From Bacteroidota bacterium (GTDB lineage Bacteria; Bacteroidota; Ignavibacteria; Ignavibacteriales; Ignavibacteriaceae), in the NCBI GenBank assembly GCA_022564295.1, contig JADFLR010000012.1:1-64000 (forward strand): a DNA stretch of 64,000 nucleotides. Reading direction: 5' to 3'. Below the pieces are notes generated by a model. The model ran no database searches and had not been told where the DNA came from. It saw only the letters and a program-made list of their open reading frames with translations. The position numbers and the translations under genes are program-made. Position 1 is the stretch's first letter. Every line of letters starts with the position of its first letter. Positions 476-53,544 of this stretch are shown here, in pieces.

Positions 476-2329
476 ATGAGAAAATTATTTATCATATTGA
501 GTTGTACAATACTATTTTTAACAGGTTGCACCACCCCTAAACAAGAAAAATCTGCATTAAAATATGTTGATGAGCCGCATTCATATGCACAACCAAACGA
601 AGCCGTAATTACGCATTTAGATTTGGATATTGTGGTAGATTTTGATCGGGAAATCATTAACGGAAAAGCAACCTATAAAATTGAAAACAACAATTCGTTA
701 CAAATAATTTTAGATTCAAAATTTTTAAAAATTGAAAAAGTTTATGCAGATGGAAATGAAACTGAATTTTTACTCGGAGATTTTGACGAACAACTTGGAC
801 AACCGTTAAAAATTAATATAGGAAAAGAGACAAAAAACATAACAGTTTACTATAGCACAACTGATAAAACAGAAGCATTACAATGGTTAAGCCCACAACA
901 AACAGCAGATAAAACACATCCATTTTTATTCACCCAGGGTGAAGCAATATTAACCAGAACCTGGATTCCAATTCAAGACAGCCCTCAAATTAAGCTTACT
1001 TATAATGCAACGGTTAAAGTTCCGTCAGAATTGATGGCTGTTATGAGTGCTGAAAATCCGAAGAAAAAAAATTACAATGGAGAATATCATTTTAAAATGC
1101 AGCAACCAATATCTCCATATTTAATTGCTCTGGCAGTAGGTGACATTGAGTATAAAGCCATCAGTAACAGAACCGGGATTTATGCCGAAAAATCAATGGT
1201 TGACAAGGTACATTATGAGTTTTCAGATATGGAAAAAATGGTTTCATCAGCCGAAAAATTATACGGAAAATACGTCTGGGAACAATTTGATGTGATTGTA
1301 TTACCTCCAAGTTTTCCTTTTGGTGGAATGGAGAACCCTCGATTAACATTTGCAACGCCAACAGTTATTGCAGGAGATAAAAGTTTGACTTCACTTGTCG
1401 CGCATGAATTAGCACACTCTTGGTCAGGAAATTTAGTAACAAACGCAACCTGGGACGATTTTTGGCTCAATGAAGGATTTACTGTTTATTTTGGAATACG
1501 TATTATGGAAGCGTTGTATGGCAAAGATAGAGCGGATATGTTGGCGCTTATTGATAGACAAGATTTGGATGAAGAATTGGAGAGATTCAAAGATACTCCT
1601 GATGAAACAAAATTAAAACTCAATTTAAAAGGACGCAATCCAGATGATGGAATGAATAGTATTGCGTATAACAAAGGATATCTGTTTTTGAGAACTTTAG
1701 AAGAAACTGTTGGGCGTGAAAAGTTTGACGAATTCTTAAAAAAATATTTTCAGAAACATGCATTTTCAACAATGACTACCGAAAAATTTGTTGCATATTT
1801 AAGCGAGAATTTGTTAGAAAAAAACCAAATTACATTTAATACTGATGAGTGGATTTACACAGCAGGAGTTCCGGGTAATCAGGCAATTATTAAGTCAGAT
1901 AAATTTGACAACGTGGAAAAAGAACTCAAACAATTCATAGAAAGTAATGCAGTAACAACGGATGTTACCAGGAATTGGACAACACAAGAATGGGTGCATT
2001 TCGTTCGTAATTTCCCAAGTGATATGGAGCAAAAACATTTAGCGATGTTTGATAAAGCATTTGACTTAACCAATTCAACCAATTCTTACATTGCGATGGT
2101 TTGGTACGAACAAGCTGTAAATTACGATTATCATGGAAATAATGTGGATGCTAAGATTGAAAACTTCTTGATTAATGTTGGACGCCGTTGGTACGTTTCA
2201 ACGATTTATAAAGCATATAAAAGAAGCGATAAAGTAAAAGAAGCATTAATTATTTATAATAAAGCACGTCCAAATTATCATTCAGTTACAGCAAATACAA
2301 TCGATGATTTGTTAGGTTTTCAGAAGTGA
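476..2329 (+). CDS. M1 family zinc aminopeptidase lipoprotein (leukotriene A4 hydrolase-like)
   Basis: A 617-residue peptidase expected to remove N-terminal residues from peptides in the periplasm or at the outer membrane. A lipoprotein signal ends in LFLTGC with the lipidated Cys at 18. The exopeptidase motif GGMEN is at 283-287, the zinc motif HELAH at 310-314, and the third zinc ligand Glu at 333 in the NEGF motif, which is the M1 HExxH-x18-E spacing. The aminopeptidase-B/LTA4H type of N-terminal half (LWLSPQQT, FTQGEAI, TRTWIP) and the helical C-terminal domain point to the LTA4 hydrolase branch. The length matches that branch. No strong Shine-Dalgarno sequence is visible. The gene lies alone, followed by a hairpin region and the GNAT gene. 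Confidence 0.93.
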   Translation: MRKLFIILSCTILFLTGCTTPKQEKSALKYVDEPHSYAQPNEAVITHLDLDIVVDFDREIINGKATYKIENNNSLQIILDSKFLKIEKVYADGNETEFLLGDFDEQLGQPLKINIGKETKNITVYYSTTDKTEALQWLSPQQTADKTHPFLFTQGEAILTRTWIPIQDSPQIKLTYNATVKVPSELMAVMSAENPKKKNYNGEYHFKMQQPISPYLIALAVGDIEYKAISNRTGIYAEKSMVDKVHYEFSDMEKMVSSAEKLYGKYVWEQFDVIVLPPSFPFGGMENPRLTFATPTVIAGDKSLTSLVAHELAHSWSGNLVTNATWDDFWLNEGFTVYFGIRIMEALYGKDRADMLALIDRQDLDEELERFKDTPDETKLKLNLKGRNPDDGMNSIAYNKGYLFLRTLEETVGREKFDEFLKKYFQKHAFSTMTTEKFVAYLSENLLEKNQITFNTDEWIYTAGVPGNQAIIKSDKFDNVEKELKQFIESNAVTTDVTRNWTTQEWVHFVRNFPSDMEQKHLAMFDKAFDLTNSTNSYIAMVWYEQAVNYDYHGNNVDAKIENFLINVGRRWYVSTIYKAYKRSDKVKEALIIYNKARPNYHSVTANTIDDLLGFQK

Positions 2330-2489
2330 GAATTAAAACAACGGTTTATTCAGAATGTCGAACACACAAACAAATGAAATACTTATTATATTTTTCTAAA
2401 CAGAAAACCATTTCGGCTTAAGAAGAGATGTCTATAAATATTGATAGATGGAAATAGAAGCAATAGAAAAATGACTATAACAAAAAAAT

Positions 2490-2531
2490 AAACTGCATTC
2501 CGCCAGAGGCGGACACGGTAAAACGCAGTTT
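2490..2531. repeat. nested palindromic element with TCCGCC-AGA-GGCGGA core
   Basis: Outer arms AAACTGC (2490-2496) and GCAGTTT (2525-2531) enclose a perfect GC-rich hairpin, TCCGCC/GGCGGA (2499-2504 and 2508-2513, 3-base loop). The core contrasts with the AT-rich surroundings. Short GC-rich palindromes of this kind occur as dispersed repeats in Bacteroidota-type genomes (general knowledge). It could also stop transcription after the aminopeptidase, although there is no clean T-run. Confidence 0.5.
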
Positions 2532-2563
2532 ATTCAAGTGGCAACAAGCAGATAGAACATATT

Positions 2564-3184
2564 ATGAAAAATTGGATAGAACACCCAATGAACATAGATG
2601 GAGAAATAATCAACCTAACTTCTTTAGAAAAAGATCACATTATTGAACTGGAAAAATTAGCCAAAGACAAAAGAATTTGGGAACACTATACAATGGATGG
2701 AACCAACTCTGAAAAACTTATTTCGGCTTTTAGTGAGGCAATAATGGAGCGAGAAAATGGAACTCAATTTCCTTTTGTGATTTTTCACAAACTTGAGAAT
2801 AGAATTATTGGGAGTACGAGATTATTAGATATACAAGAAAAACATCTCAAATTAGAAATTGGCTGGACCTGGTTAGATCCTAACTTTTGGGGAACAGCTG
2901 TAAATTTGGAATGTAAATTATTATTGTTAACATTTTGTTTTGAAACATTAAAAACAACTCGAGTTCAATTTAAAACAGATGAAAGAAATTTGCGTTCAAG
3001 AAGGGCAATTAAAAAAATTGGTGGCCAGTTTGAAGGCATATTACGACATGATATGTTAAGAGATAATGGAACAAATAGAAATTCTGCTTCATACAGTATT
3101 ATTGACAAAGAATGGGTATATACCAAGCAAATAATTATTGAACAATTTGAAAATAAGAAAAAGCCAGCTGCTAACAACGTGTGA
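2564..3184 (+). CDS. GNAT family N-acetyltransferase (RimJ/RimL-like)
   Basis: A 206-residue protein with the acetyl-CoA-dependent acetyltransferase fold of the Acetyltransf_3 / RimJ-RimL type. The substrate cannot be told. The signs are the central strand LEIGWTWLDPNFWGTAVN, the segment TTRVQFKTDERNLRSRRAIKKIG that matches the family's N-xx-S-xxx-I/V-x-KxG region, and the following FEGILR. The last codons and stop lie inside an attC-like inverted repeat (3170-3222), so the C-terminal ANNV may be encoded by the recombination site. GNAT genes are common integron cassette cargo. The start at 2564 has no strong Shine-Dalgarno sequence. Confidence 0.85.
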   Translation: MKNWIEHPMNIDGEIINLTSLEKDHIIELEKLAKDKRIWEHYTMDGTNSEKLISAFSEAIMERENGTQFPFVIFHKLENRIIGSTRLLDIQEKHLKLEIGWTWLDPNFWGTAVNLECKLLLLTFCFETLKTTRVQFKTDERNLRSRRAIKKIGGQFEGILRHDMLRDNGTNRNSASYSIIDKEWVYTKQIIIEQFENKKKPAANNV

Positions 3185-3222
3185 AACCAACTTAAAACAG
3201 GTTTTTACACAAGACCGTTGGC
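3170..3222 (+). other. short attC-like recombination site
   Basis: The outer arms GCTAAC (3170-3175) and GTTGGC (3217-3222) pair with one G-T wobble. The inner arms GTGT+AAACC (3179-3188) and GGTTT+ACAC (3200-3210) also pair. The layout R''-L''-loop-L'-R', with total length near 53 bases and the right end ACCGTTGGC, resembles a minimal integron attC. The right box departs from GTTRRRY at its last positions, so the match is imperfect. It sits exactly at the 3' end of the GNAT gene, as an attC of that cassette should. A terminator is unlikely because no T-run follows. Confidence 0.5.
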
Positions 3223-3251
3223 GGAAATAATAATTAACCAAATAAAACATT

Positions 3252-3650
3252 ATGAAAGAACTTAAGGAAGAAACTTCAACTCAGAAATTATATTGGGATA
3301 GTGAAAACGAGATTGTGTGGGGCGAACTGTTTGCTGATATAAAAACAAAAAAGCTTGCTAAAGAGAATATTGATGCACAGGAGAGAATTCGTGATAGCAT
3401 GAATAAAGAGAAAACTCGTGTTATTATAGATATGACCGCAGTATTTGAGATATCAAAAGAGGCGAGAGATTACTTCGCTAATGAAAGAACAGCTTCCATT
3501 CAACGTGCAACAGCATTACTGATCGGCTCGGTAGTAAGTAGAACAATCGGAAACTTCTTCCTGGGCCTGAACAAACCTATTACTCCTACCAAATTGTTTA
3601 CAGATCCACAGGAAGCGATTAAATGGTTACGTACGTTCAGCGATGAGTGA
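3252..3650 (+). CDS. STAS/SpoIIAA-like protein (DUF7793-type)
   Basis: A 132-residue soluble protein. The pattern VIIDMTAVFEISKEARDYF, followed by ALLIGSVVSRTIGNFFLGLNKP and a final LFTDPQEAIKWL, is that of the STAS/SpoIIAA-like family often written next to histidine kinases, with an alternating beta-alpha fold and a conserved N-F-F-L-G-L-N-K segment. No obvious enzymatic residues are seen. The frame overlaps the next gene by eight bases (3643-3650), which implies translational coupling. Its likely role is a regulatory or anchoring partner of that kinase. It begins 30 bases after the attC-like site. Confidence 0.75.
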   Translation: MKELKEETSTQKLYWDSENEIVWGELFADIKTKKLAKENIDAQERIRDSMNKEKTRVIIDMTAVFEISKEARDYFANERTASIQRATALLIGSVVSRTIGNFFLGLNKPITPTKLFTDPQEAIKWLRTFSDE

Positions 3651-4500
3651 GCCGCAATTTGATGAACGATTGGATGCCGTGCTGTCGATGCTGAAAAGCA
3701 TCGCTTCTCTGGACTTTACCAGGAAGCTAAAACTAAGCAGTAAAGCAGACAAGATTGATGCTGTTGCTGCCGGCCTGAATATGCTGAGCGAAGAGTTGAA
3801 ATCGAATGTGATCAAAAGGACAGAGCTGGAAGAAATTAACAAAAATCTTGAGAGATTTGCCTCCATCGCAGCACACGATATGAAATCCCCATTGAGCGCA
3901 TTAGTATCATTAACCAACTTGCTTGAAGATGAACTGCAAGACCATCCCAACAAGCAAGTTGTGGAGTATCTCGATATGTTGAGAGTAACAAACAACAAAA
4001 TGAACAAACTGATCATGGGCATTCTTGAGTACTCTAAAACTACATTAACTGTAAGGCAGATGCTGAAGATTGACCTTGGCAAGTTGTTCCATAAAGCGGC
4101 AGCCCTATATAGCACAAATGAATGGGTTGTAATAAGCATTGGAGAGGGAATGCCCGTGGTTCAGCATTCTGAAACCGCGCTTACACAAATCATCAATAAC
4201 CTGTTAGACAATGCTGTCAAATACAACGACAAGGAAATCTGCCAAATAGAAATACAATGCACTGACCAGGGCGATCAATACGTAATTTCCATTGCAGATA
4301 ACGGTCCGGGAATACTTCCGGATGATCGTGAAAAGATATTTGACTTGTTTGAGAACCTTAAGACAGAAAGAGAAAACAGCATAGGAATTGGATTAGCAAC
4401 CGTAAAGAAGATTGTAACTGATACCAACGGTCGAATATGGGTTGAGCCATCAGAAAATCAGGGCGCAAAGTTCGTGTTTACAATAAAGAAAGAAGATTAA
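3643..4500 (+). CDS. histidine kinase without an N-terminal sensor domain
   Basis: A 285-residue cytosolic kinase. After about 70 residues of helix, the HisKA motif AAHDMKSPLSAL places the phospho-accepting His at 78. The HATPase domain follows with the N box (NNLLDNAVKYND), G1 (DNGPGI), F box (IFDLFENL) and G2 (GIGLATVKKI). There is no membrane segment, PAS or GAF domain, so the input presumably comes through the STAS-like protein whose gene overlaps its start. No response regulator is adjacent; the target is unknown. Local base composition is somewhat richer in GC than the flanks, which would fit transfer. Confidence 0.9.
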   Translation: MSEPQFDERLDAVLSMLKSIASLDFTRKLKLSSKADKIDAVAAGLNMLSEELKSNVIKRTELEEINKNLERFASIAAHDMKSPLSALVSLTNLLEDELQDHPNKQVVEYLDMLRVTNNKMNKLIMGILEYSKTTLTVRQMLKIDLGKLFHKAAALYSTNEWVVISIGEGMPVVQHSETALTQIINNLLDNAVKYNDKEICQIEIQCTDQGDQYVISIADNGPGILPDDREKIFDLFENLKTERENSIGIGLATVKKIVTDTNGRIWVEPSENQGAKFVFTIKKED

Positions 4501-4630: not shown

Positions 4631-4882
4631 TTACTTCATCAACATCATCTTCTTAGTCTCAACAAAATTTCCTGCTTGTAACCTGTAGAAGTAGATTCCA
4701 CTTGGTAAAGTTGTTGCATTGAACTCAATTTCATAACTACCCGCAGGTATTTCTTCATTAATGAGAGCTACAATCTCATTTCCCAATACATCATAAACTT
4801 TCAGAGTAACAAAACTTAATTCTGGAATTGAATATTTTATTGTAGTAGCTGGATTGAAAGGATTGGGGTAGTTCTGAATCAA
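4631..4882 (-). pseudogene. decapitated T9SS type A sorting domain
   Basis: About 83 codons encode only the C-terminal secretion tail: QNYPNPFNPATTI, then VYDVLGNEI, then LPSGIYFYRLQAGNF and the final TKKMMLMK. Normally this follows a signal peptide and a large exported domain. Here a TAG stands directly before the first codon (a TTG at 4880-4882), and no signal sequence or cargo exists upstream. The piece is best read as the surviving 3' end of a deleted secreted-protein gene, with its terminator intact. The break lies about 90 bases from the attC-like site at 4975-5105, so the gene may have been cut during cassette insertion or a deletion. Confidence 0.8.
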
Positions 4883-4974
4883 CTATACTACAAGAATGAA
4901 ATAAAACAAAGAAGATTAACAACAATATGGATTTTATATTTTCTCCATTCACCTTATTTCTGATCTTCTTGACT

Positions 4975-5105
4975 GCCTAACGCTAATCATAACCTGCGCA
5001 GGGCTTGAACGCAATGAACTTCAATATTTAATCATTACTTCAAAGAATGCTTTGAACGTTCAATTTTCGCTGTGCCCCTGCGTCTGGTTAATGATTTTGT
5101 TAGGC
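4975..5105 (-). other. attC-like site, 131 bp, at the 3' end of the DUF4440 cassette
   Basis: The two ends are exact 7-base complements: GCCTAAC (4975-4981) and GTTAGGC (5099-5105), which fit the integron consensus RYYYAAC / GTTRRRY. The pairing continues inward through an imperfect arm of about 25 bases (CTAATCAT-AACC-TGCGCAGGG against CCCCTGCGTCTGGTTAATGATT). Read on the minus strand, the site starts GCCTAACAAAATC and ends GCGTTAGGC, matching the usual attC polarity with the recombination point in the last box. It begins 45 bases after the stop of the minus-strand DUF4440 gene. The length is similar to Vibrio VCR sites. No integron integrase is visible in this window. Confidence 0.7.
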
Positions 5106-5150
5106 CAAAATACTAACTACTATAAAATCAATTGATTAAATATTGAATTA

Positions 5151-5624
5151 CTACTCTTCTTCTTGCACGGGCATGCTACTATTAAATATGTCTCGGTGCA
5201 TCTTCCATTGACCATTTTCTTTTTTCCAAATAATGATATATTTTCCCTTGTCAAGAACCTGTCCTCCCTCTCCTTTGAGCGTATACTTTGAAATTTCAAT
5301 AGCTGTATTACCGTGACCATCCATTTCAATAATCTCAAGATTAGCCTCTTTGATTCCCATATCTATTAAAGTCTGCCAAAACGTTTGAATTGCTTCCTTA
5401 CCTGTTACAAATTCACTGTTAGGGGGCAATACTTGTCCGTTTTCTGTGTATAGAGCTGCCAAAGCAGCAGCGTCACCCTGACTAAAGGCTGTCATGAAAT
5501 TTTCATTTGCAGAAGCAATTTCATTACGGACTTTTAAATTATCTTCCTCTCTAGGAGCACAATTAATTAAAAGTAACAGCATAATCAGGATAATTGTAAT
5601 TGAATAAATATGATTAAAACGCAT
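5151..5624 (-). CDS. DUF4440 / SnoaL-like lipoprotein
   Basis: A 157-residue exported protein. The signal ends in LLLINC (Cys 22), so it is probably anchored in a membrane facing the periplasm. The mature part has the NTF2-like cone fold pattern of DUF4440/SgcJ proteins: a first helix with ANENFMTAFSQGDAAALAALYTENG, then VTGKEAIQTFWQ, and strands ending YIIIWKKENGQWKMHRDIF. The pocket's ligand is unknown. The start is firm: AGGAGG lies eight bases before the ATG. With the attC-like repeat behind its stop it has the architecture of a single-gene integron cassette. Confidence 0.85.
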   Translation of the reverse strand: MRFNHIYSITIILIMLLLLINCAPREEDNLKVRNEIASANENFMTAFSQGDAAALAALYTENGQVLPPNSEFVTGKEAIQTFWQTLIDMGIKEANLEIIEMDGHGNTAIEISKYTLKGEGGQVLDKGKYIIIWKKENGQWKMHRDIFNSSMPVQEEE

Positions 5625-5879
5625 AGTTCTTTCCTCCTATTTTTGTGTTTACAATACCATAATAATAAAAAATAATTAAATAGTAAACCTTTTACTTTAG
5701 CAACACAACAATTGGCAAAGAATAAATTTATAAAAAATTAATTGAGATTGTCTGCGCCCTTCACACCCACAAAGCCGACGTCCCTTTTGTGTCCCCTACC
5801 CCCTTGAATTTGGTTGAAAATTCTCATCAACTTTCAGGTTAAAAATCTCTATCAAGTCCCTTCATCTCTTTTTCTGTTT

Positions 5880-6113
5880 TCATCCTTGTCCTCCAATTTC
5901 AGAATGTTCTGCATTATAATCATCTTCATCATATTCTTCTAATAGTTTTTCTGCTTTCTCCCGCCAGATTTTTGCAAATGCATCCAGAAATTTTTCTTTA
6001 TCTTCCATTCTGATAATAATATCACAAGTTTTTTTGCCTATATCATATTCCGTGTGACAAAAATATTCTTCTTGATATAATTCATCTAAATCTACTCGAA
6101 ATTTTTTATTCAT
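5880..6113 (-). CDS. small acidic protein, unknown
   Basis: A 77-residue frame, unrecognised. It is strongly acidic (EEYDEDDYNAEHSE near the end) with a probable amphipathic helix FLDAFAKIWREKAEKLLEEY and two cysteines (19 and 30). An AGGA sequence lies about nine bases upstream of the start. It has no signal peptide or membrane segment. It stands alone between the cassette region and the tRNA region. Coding status rests on the ribosome site and plausible composition only. Confidence 0.5.
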   Translation of the reverse strand: MNKKFRVDLDELYQEEYFCHTEYDIGKKTCDIIIRMEDKEKFLDAFAKIWREKAEKLLEEYDEDDYNAEHSEIGGQG

Positions 6114-6390
6114 CTTAAAAATCCTATATACTTTTTATTTGATGTTAAACGTTGCTCCTATTGAAGCTCAATCCATACTTATGAGATTTAATTTGAACAT
6201 TTACTTACAAATTATCAAGACATATAATAATATGTGGATATATGGGAATATCAAAAAAAATTTATCACTATAACCTTTTTAAAATTAATGACTTACAAGG
6301 ACGTGACAAATTGTCTGTTGACTTTGCCAATAAAATTGTTTTATTAGTATGAAGATTCAATAAGGTAAGACTAAATAATGAAATTTATTT

Positions 6391-6454
6391 CGGGAAAGCC
6401 TGAGAGGTCTAATGGGAACTTACTTTCCTTGAATCTACCTCTTGGGCTTTTTCG
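6391..6454 (+). ncRNA. long hairpin, candidate small RNA 3' end or terminator
   Basis: The arms AAAGCCTGAGAGGT (6395-6408) and ACCTCTTGGGCTTT (6437-6450) pair over 14 positions with two G-T wobbles. The stem extends outward to 18 pairs using CGGG / TTCG, and an inner GGGAA/TTTCC stem closes the loop. Five T residues (6448-6452) lie in the 3' arm. A TTGACT-N18-TATTAG promoter-like pair sits roughly 50-70 bases upstream. No gene precedes it on this strand, so an independent short transcript ending here is the simplest reading. No match to tmRNA, SRP or RNase P core motifs was seen. A 26-codon frame also covers it (6378-6458). Confidence 0.4.
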
Positions 6455-6496
6455 TTAATGAGTTCTTAAAAATCTTTTTTGAAATCATTGAGTAGG

Positions 6497-6569
6497 ATTG
6501 ATTACAATTTTGATTACTCAATTCTGATTTTCAAGTAATCAATTAGTAATCAATTCAATTTTTGATTAG
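6497..6569. repeat. TTGATTAC repeat cluster downstream of tRNA-Ser
   Basis: Two direct TTGATTAC units (6498-6505, 6510-6517) face two inverted GTAATCAA units (6535-6542, 6546-6553), followed by a variant TTGATTAG (6562-6569). The arrangement can fold into one long AT-rich hairpin on the 3' side of the tRNA gene. It may be a transcription end region, a binding-site array, or a trace of an element that used the tRNA 3' end. Confidence 0.4.
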
Positions 6570-52107: not shown

Positions 52108-53544
52108 TTAAGCAGTAATAATTTTATTACTATTTTCATTTTGCAAATAAATATAATGCCCCTTCCAAATCACTCCCTTCAATTCAAGTAAAAACAGGAT
52201 AAGAATTGGAAGATGCTCGATATAAATAATATAATCCGAAAGATAATTTAACTGGTACAGGGGCAGTAGTAATGGATAAAGAAGTAAAGATGCTTTCGGT
52301 CTTACGGCAAGTAAAGGAACCATCCACGTATAATACCAGGGGAATTGAGTCGGGCTTATTAAATATAGCACCGCAACTATCAGCAATGCTTTATAGAAGA
52401 ATTGTAATTTATCCTGATGAGTTTTTCTTAAAATTATTGCACCGATAAACAGGTAAATAATAAATATTCCCCATCGGCTTATGCACGATAAACAACCGAC
52501 ACTTATATGCAGAAATGAAATTGTTTCCTGTATAAACCACTGAATCATAGTATAAATAGCAGCATTATTTATCCACTCGCCTGCATATTTAATAAAACCA
52601 AGTGTGTTGTCTAATCTGCTTAATAATACGGGAATAAATAAAACGAAAACCAATCCTGCAAATACACTGATAAATTTTAGCAGCAGTTTTTTATTTTGCC
52701 AAAAGTTTCTTAATAATAATGGAAGTAAAACAACAGGCCACAACTTAAATCCTACTGCGAATGCCAAAACAACTATCGCAAACCATGTTTTGTTTTTGAT
52801 TGAAAGATAAAGAGATAAACTTACAAACAACAGAGCAAGTAAATCCATATGAGCGGCGTTAAAAAACTCATGTATAACAATTGGATTAAGCCAGTAAAAC
52901 ACAATAAACAACAGCGGCAGTTTTAACTCTTTAAGAGTTTTAAATAAAACTAAAAGCAAAATAATATCAAACAAAAGCAGTAATACCTTCCATGCCCACA
53001 ACTCCCACGGCGAAATGAAGTAAGCTGCTGCAAACACAATCTGTGAAAGTATTGGGTAAATCGTTCTGATGTGCGGATGATTAATGTTCTTTACTGTCTG
53101 TCCTGATTCATTAGCTAAATCACGAAGTTCTTCCGGAACATCGCCGTTAGTAACATCCATTGTAGCTTTCGGACTGTAAACATACGGATTGTAACCATGC
53201 GCTGTAACTGCACCATCCCATAAATATCTGTAATAATCATCTTCTAAAACCGGTTGCGAGGGGATAAGTATTATTCTGCTAACTAATCCAACCACAATTA
53301 TTAGCCCTAACCAAAGAATGTTGTTTTTTATTCTTTTAATATTAAAAACGGCAATGAAAAAGTATAACCCGACTATCATCCTGAAAGAAACATAGGGAAC
53401 GATATCTTCGGTATGCGGCTTTATGCCTAAAGTAAGTTCAGGTGATTTTATTAAAATATAGATTGCATAAGCAATCAAAAGGATAAAGAAAACTATCCAA
53501 ACAGTATTGAAATAATTATATTTTGAATTTTTGATATTAACCAA
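52108..53544 (-). CDS. multi-spanning GT-C type glycosyltransferase
   Basis: A 478-residue protein with about twelve membrane helices. The first outer loop has the GT-C acidic motif VLEDDYYRYLWDGAVTAHGYNPY, as in polyprenol-phosphate-dependent mannosyl/arabinosyl-type transferases. Other helices include GLVSRIILIPSQP and LLFIVFYWLNPIVIHEFF. It should use a lipid-linked sugar donor on the outer face of the membrane. It is divergent from the radical SAM gene at 53705 and starts a region of sugar genes. Confidence 0.75.
   Translation of the reverse strand: MVNIKNSKYNYFNTVWIVFFILLIAYAIYILIKSPELTLGIKPHTEDIVPYVSFRMIVGLYFFIAVFNIKRIKNNILWLGLIIVVGLVSRIILIPSQPVLEDDYYRYLWDGAVTAHGYNPYVYSPKATMDVTNGDVPEELRDLANESGQTVKNINHPHIRTIYPILSQIVFAAAYFISPWELWAWKVLLLLFDIILLLVLFKTLKELKLPLLFIVFYWLNPIVIHEFFNAAHMDLLALLFVSLSLYLSIKNKTWFAIVVLAFAVGFKLWPVVLLPLLLRNFWQNKKLLLKFISVFAGLVFVLFIPVLLSRLDNTLGFIKYAGEWINNAAIYTMIQWFIQETISFLHISVGCLSCISRWGIFIIYLFIGAIILRKTHQDKLQFFYKALLIVAVLYLISPTQFPWYYTWMVPLLAVRPKASLLLYPLLLPLYQLNYLSDYIIYIEHLPILILFLLELKGVIWKGHYIYLQNENSNKIITA

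Follow-up and report, generated by a model that had tools for sequence, protein, structure and literature searches.

The window, by which we mean the whole 64,000-nt stretch of DNA that was analysed, is part of a 98-kb contig (C42) in a 4.07-Mb genome and carries, at 5151-5624 on the minus strand, a gene for a 157-aa protein of the DUF4440 (NTF2/SnoaL-like) family (Pfam DUF4440, 3.3e-16). The gene has its own ribosome site, as the initial annotation had claimed, with AGGAGG eight bases ahead of the ATG, and its product, as read from the sequence, has a lipoprotein-like signal with an LINC lipobox. The stop codon lies 45 nt upstream of a 131-nt site at 4975-5105, in the arrangement of an integron gene cassette, with one gene followed by an attC site on the same strand. 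We also note a perfect 15-nt inverted repeat, with one copy at 5020-5034 in the terminal region of the site and the other at 5133-5147, just behind the DUF4440 stop.

Directly 3′ of the site, a GTG start with a possible ribosome site and a lipoprotein-like signal (4860-4952, minus strand) may, judging from its sequence, be the beginning of another cassette gene that has been truncated. This reading frame continues, but not in frame, into a type IX secretion C-terminal sorting domain at 4631-4882 (minus strand; Pfam Por_Secre_tail, 7.5e-12); the domain is an orphan, separated from any protein by a TAG stop immediately before it. Similar sorting tails recur at many places in this genome and in related ones, and the 31-aa peptide encoded by 4860-4952 was found among the loci compared only at its own place. 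On the other side of the DUF4440 gene there is a dispersed intergenic repeat at 5722-5880 (no strand assigned), with copies on contigs C48, C53 and C37 of the same genome; the copy on C48 matches 5722-5938 at 91%. This repeat occurs in two forms that differ in the middle. The right flank is common to genus relatives at 86%, with window positions 5812-6555 shared by genome G379 and 5807-6213 by G392. The segment 4877-5721 has no match in five other genus genomes, and the left flank (2400-4500) none in relatives, in both cases among the matches listed.

Anatomy of the attC site

On the minus strand the site begins with the R″ box GCCTAAC (5099-5105) and ends with the R′ box GTTAGGC (4975-4981), the latter placed by the sequence and by the alignment to covariance model R1 described below; the two are complementary at 7/7 bases and have the RYYYAAC ... 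GTTRRRY form of attC boxes. Read on the plus strand, GCCTAAC occupies 4975-4981 and GTTAGGC 5099-5105, both exact, as had been claimed, and they enclose 131 nt. GCCTAAC alone occurs 4 times in the window versus 3.1 expected, which is not significant; the spaced pattern GCCTAAC-N(90-120)-GTTAGGC is present at a single place in the whole genome, and a backward control pattern at none. An R-box and inner-arm pairing score made for this analysis gave 20 for the site; when the window was dinucleotide-shuffled 30 times, the highest score was 17.

Inside the boxes, the L″/L′ stem has two unpaired, extrahelical bases on its R″-L″ arm. The first, at site position 16 (window 5090), is T on the top strand and A on the bottom and was placed by the R1 alignment; the second, at site position 23 (window 5083), is A on the top strand and T on the bottom, was placed by R1 together with the training-site alignments, and sits within a GAC motif common to other sites of the class. 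Both letters were confirmed. The central spacer is unpaired and asymmetric, with 2 vs 3 bases in the R1 alignment and in the top-strand fold; when the bottom strand is folded freely, only 2 vs 1 bases stay unpaired.

Because a C precedes GTTAGGC and the bulged bases lie on the R″-L″ arm, the minus strand is taken as the attC top strand. This is also the strand of the DUF4440 gene, which bears out the canonical polarity ascribed to the site. IntI would thus bind the plus strand of the window, as the folded bottom strand. Most attC sites are described as having a G beside the AAC of the R′ box on the bottom strand (PMC2727003), and the C before R′ supplies such a G here.

The first extrahelical base is less typical, as the bottom strand has A where G is usual; G is near-universal at this place, and we count the A against the attC reading. 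Site position 16 presumably corresponds to G16 of the Vibrio cholerae integron attC site (VCR), by counting along the VCR sequence. Across 42 sites (43 were given, one was dropped for an odd start, and the window site is included) the top-strand letter at the first extrahelical offset is C in 31, G in 7, T in 2 and A in 2, and the bottom-strand G is thus absent from 11 of them, the window site among these. The extrahelical G at position 16 of the VCR is described as strand-selecting, and the losses reported for its G16A form are 1.2-fold in integration and 1.7-fold in deletion (PMC2727003). Since 11/42 sites do without the G and the VCR tolerates G16A, we do not regard this base as a defining feature. 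The window site is otherwise like the VCR in its R and L boxes, its asymmetric spacer, the presence of an extrahelical base at position 16 and a large, variable terminal structure, all as described in the same source (PMC2727003). It differs in having A rather than G as the first extrahelical base, in that the three extrahelical bases of VCR2/1 have as their counterpart two bulges and one mismatch (a comparison made without alignment), and in a spacer shorter than the five bases of VCR2/1 (PMC2727003).

Folded as DNA, the plus strand reaches -30.8 kcal/mol (z -7.4) and the minus strand -30.1 kcal/mol (z -6.8), with 0/200 shuffles as good in either case. That the two strands fold almost equally well would suit a hairpin of another kind (for example a terminator, an intergenic repeat or a small transposon derivative), and this genome does carry dispersed intergenic repeats. 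However, a DNA search of the genome with the 131-nt site returned only the site itself, so that the element is present in one copy, and no terminator-like call was made at 4975-5105. An Rfam scan of the window reported only a tRNA, and a distant search of plasmids with the 131-nt site gave no match. The remaining objection to such a hairpin comes from the covariance model.

A covariance model for attC sites of the class

Model R1 was trained on 13 oriented attC sites from five other genomes of the class, with the window site excluded, and its structure (R box, L stem, and unpaired columns 17 and 24) was written by hand. In the training alignment 96.5% of cells are paired and 11 pairs are changed on both sides; the observed pairing was reached by 0 of 500 shuffles on four measures and by 1/500 on a fifth, and sliding the pair partners by 1 to 3 columns lowers pairing to 26-41%. 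The training sites were initially picked by a palindrome scan with an R-box rule that the window site also satisfies, which counts against the test; as a check on this, R1 then found sites beside intI in relatives.

In the window, R1 has a single match, at 4975-5105 on the minus strand, which is full length and scores 44.9 bits with an E-value of 7e-10, although R1 E-values are to be read as rough. The site thus passes a covariance-model test of the kind that the initial annotation had looked to, here with a model made in this analysis instead of IntegronFinder. One pair in the alignment is non-standard, an A-A next to the GAC motif, and positions 16 and 23 are unpaired as in the training sites. 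The agreement of the site, bulges included, with an attC model, and the finding by that model of runs of sites beside the intI genes of relatives, complete the case against some other hairpin element, a reading that is largely contradicted by the present evidence and that we consider very improbable.

At the 16 intI-bearing loci of the host family, R1 located sites at ten (L058, L059, L062, L063, L065, L067, L068, L069, L070 and L076); L062 has six, the first about 1.2 kb past the intI match. These host-family sites are mostly 187-226 nt long, and pairing scans limited to 170-180 nt had given none or weak candidates only at the same loci, because their length limit lies below the lengths of the sites. 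No match up to E 5 was obtained from 12 other sources (133,548 bases), which included the part of C42 outside the window and one intI-bearing contig from the genus, and the window site is therefore the only R1 match on C42. The two relatives of the DUF4440 protein that were found, with 48-50% identity and both in one Pseudomonadales MAG, have no adjoining attC site by R1, a point against the cassette reading. A search of the genome with R1 returned eight places, five of them with E < 0.01; in that search only 150 of 1136 first-look candidates were scored, and the window site was not listed. R1 also missed the C22 site and, of the nine C31 sites that a later scan recovered on L109, five; since it misses sites, the numbers of attC sites given for this genome are minimum values. 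One weak R1 place, C17:2571 (E 1.2), was not confirmed by the later scan, and weak matches at L106:17545, L109:13272, L110:11108 and L106:15181 (E 0.02 to 1.1) were left uncounted.

Other attC-like sites and integrase genes

The later scan, which scored position weights and pairing after training on 28 sites from other genomes, covered 318 kb of the genome, window included; most of this was chosen around earlier matches, and the density of sites in it is not representative of the whole genome. Twenty-five matches scored above 30.4, the best value in 2.54 Mb of dinucleotide shuffles (mononucleotide shuffles, 0.95 Mb, gave a best control of 33.8). One of them, at window 53362-53426, was dismissed in spite of a score of 34.0, which is above both shuffled maxima, because GTT is absent from its R′ side, a 478-aa ORF encloses it and R1 has no match there. 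The remainder comprise the window site and 23 others on six other contigs, at least 24 attC-like sites in all, so the further sites that the initial annotation had taken as the sign of a real cassette array are indeed present. Their distribution is four on C12, two on C30, ten on C31 (in two places), one on C57, five on C5 and one on C22. Two of the C5 sites, with scores of 33.6 and 32.8, fall below the mononucleotide control and were kept for their place between ORFs. Many of the attC-like sites lie between consecutive ORFs of the same strand, and those on C12, C30 and C31 are near contig ends.

Within this one genome the sites range from 56 to 240 nt, and this mixture suggests cassettes from several sources. 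Most of the array sites on C12 and C31 are 165-240 nt long. The long sites of the host family and of C12/C31 share the 5′ arm of the window site, namely a seven-base R″ box, eight bases, a bulged base, and then an A/C-rich stretch ending in GAC; they differ from it in length, the commonest values being about 188 and 220-240 nt compared with 131, and in having a longer spacer before R′, often CAACGCC, where the window site has a short one. On C5 (L112, G000:C5, 9326-13745) five short attC-like sites of 56-132 nt accompany a peroxiredoxin-family gene, and this cluster, unlike the long C31 and C12 sites, is apparently of different origin. Elsewhere (L109, G000:C31, 11170-12174, and L074, 7386-8351) cassettes carry genes for DUF4062 plus TIR or CAP12/Pycsar-type TIR proteins, which, from their domains, may be anti-phage defence genes within integron cassettes.

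An intI gene was looked for, as the initial annotation had proposed. None of the 17 matches in the whole assembly is over the curated cut-off, and C42 holds neither such an intI nor any further R1 attC, so that the locus is not a complete integron with its integrase in cis. Contig C22, however, contains a 48-aa ORF in which a 44-residue intI-like N-terminal stretch is followed by a stop, and this stump is 70% identical over 40 aa to the N-terminus of the intI of genome G027. It lies near a contig end in a segment (L074, G000:C22, 6254-8351) that also includes a 186-aa ORF, a 189-nt attC-like site (L074:7181-7369) about 0.8 kb from the stump, and the TIR-DUF4062 gene, and from its sequence this segment is likely to be a dead remnant of an integron platform. 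The C22 cassettes lie 5′ of the stump on the opposite strand, a divergent layout, whereas at all ten host-family loci with R1 sites the array lies 3′ of intI and shares its strand; the stump may therefore come from a different kind of integron. Class 1 integrons have the divergent layout, unlike those ten loci. Other matches to the intI model were taken, without a tree, for different tyrosine recombinases: weak N-terminal ones on C49 and C58 (27-33% identity) and a C-terminal piece on C57 (39-45% identity). As the sites on C12, C30 and C31 are near contig ends, an intact intI may yet lie in an assembly gap.

In the class as a whole, intI genes over the curated cut-off were found in 70/391 genomes, some of them cut by contig ends, and in 0/14 control genomes. 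The GCCTAAC-N(90-120)-GTTAGGC pattern was present in 18/391 class genomes, including that of the window, and one genome has 25. At one locus of the survey (L046, G341:C247) two intI matches, one full-length and one partial, lie on opposite strands within 2 kb (862-1803, plus strand, and 2086-2499, minus strand).

Origin and meaning of the cassette

Given this evidence we consider it very probable that 4975-5105 is a genuine attC site which, with the DUF4440 gene, makes up one integron cassette, alone on a contig without an integrase. The proposal that it is a stray cassette (CALIN) or part of a distant array is supported by the R1 match, the 23 further attC-like sites and the intI-like stump. 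CALINs are described as two or more attC sites less than 4 kb apart without intI (PMC9668308, PMC9024848), and the window locus resembles such elements, as well as the single-attC elements of IntegronFinder, in having an attC site behind a cassette gene, no nearby intI found, and further attC-like sites elsewhere in the genome. But there is a single site here, and as it is the only R1 match on the 98-kb contig the locus is strictly a single-attC orphan rather than a cluster; the IntegronFinder 2.0 default for a CALIN is given as two sites, and single-attC cases are said in the same source to be true in some instances (PMC9024848). Other contigs of the genome, C31 and C5 among them, do have clusters of the CALIN kind.

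Apart from the solitary attC site, the unseen second border of the cassette counts against this interpretation. The 5′ border should fall between about 5640 and 5725, because the dispersed repeat starts at 5722; the G/TTRRRY core of such a border is missing, as no minus-strand GTTRRRY occurs in 5625-5806, which contains three plain GTT. Insertion into a non-integron target would, however, not require the full core.

Two histories may be considered for the cassette. A second cassette may once have followed it, with a deletion later joining the first codons of that cassette to the type IX tail. The full complementarity of R′ to R″ agrees with this, as does the lipoprotein-like start with its possible ribosome site directly after R′ and out of frame with the sorting tail, and the genome is rich in repeats (sorting tails and intergenic repeats) that would be able to recombine; but the 31-aa start lacks relatives among the loci compared and R1 found no second attC on the contig, and we put this history at a little short of an even chance. 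Alternatively, IntI may have placed a free cassette directly into a non-integron chromosomal site of the attG type, as is described for attG sites in E. coli (PMC12444791). This fits almost as well, and is in our view possible rather than probable. The absence of 4877-5721 from five other genus genomes, among the matches listed, next to the right flank shared with G379 and G392, speaks for such an insertion, and contig C57 provides another single site; on the other hand the R′ box is an intact GTTAGGC, rarely to be expected of a random target, there is no upstream GTTRRRY border, and the left flank is itself unmatched in relatives, again among the matches listed, with no clean empty site. An exact empty site is not readable because the borders of the locus fall in dispersed repeats.

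The window cassette probably entered as a foreign one, since at 131 nt and with a short spacer it is unlike most of the sites on C12 and C31. It would have been placed by an integron-family IntI that worked on the bottom strand in its folded form (the plus strand of the window), with a cut that we take to fall between the G and TT of the R′ box. IntI is described as acting on the folded bottom strand and recombining in the R′ box (PMC2727003). As far as the assembly shows, the cassette would now be movable only by an IntI supplied in trans, and cassettes in integrase-less clusters are described as still excisable or capturable by outside integrases (PMC9668308). Inactivation of the integrase and CALINs at other loci are described in Xanthomonas (PMC12444791). 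A more inclusive picture, that of a decayed integron system with a stump integrase and cassettes on at least seven contigs, in which the DUF4440 cassette was inserted outside any integron platform and the attC sites of the lineage are mostly very long (about 188-240 nt), seems to us unlikely when taken as a whole.

The system is one already known. The remark that integrons are less well described in Ignavibacteria is only partly right, as complete integrons are reported from Chlorobi and Ignavibacteriae, and attC clusters without an integrase are defined, in a paper already in print (PMC9024848); the present locus is a new example. Less usual are the great length of the attC sites in the host family and the scattering of sites without an intact integrase. 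For the field this is confirmation and extension and does not introduce a new principle. Integron integrases are common in the class, and this species keeps its attC-like sites although no intact integrase was found in its assembly; its orphan cassettes could be captured by an active IntI from elsewhere.
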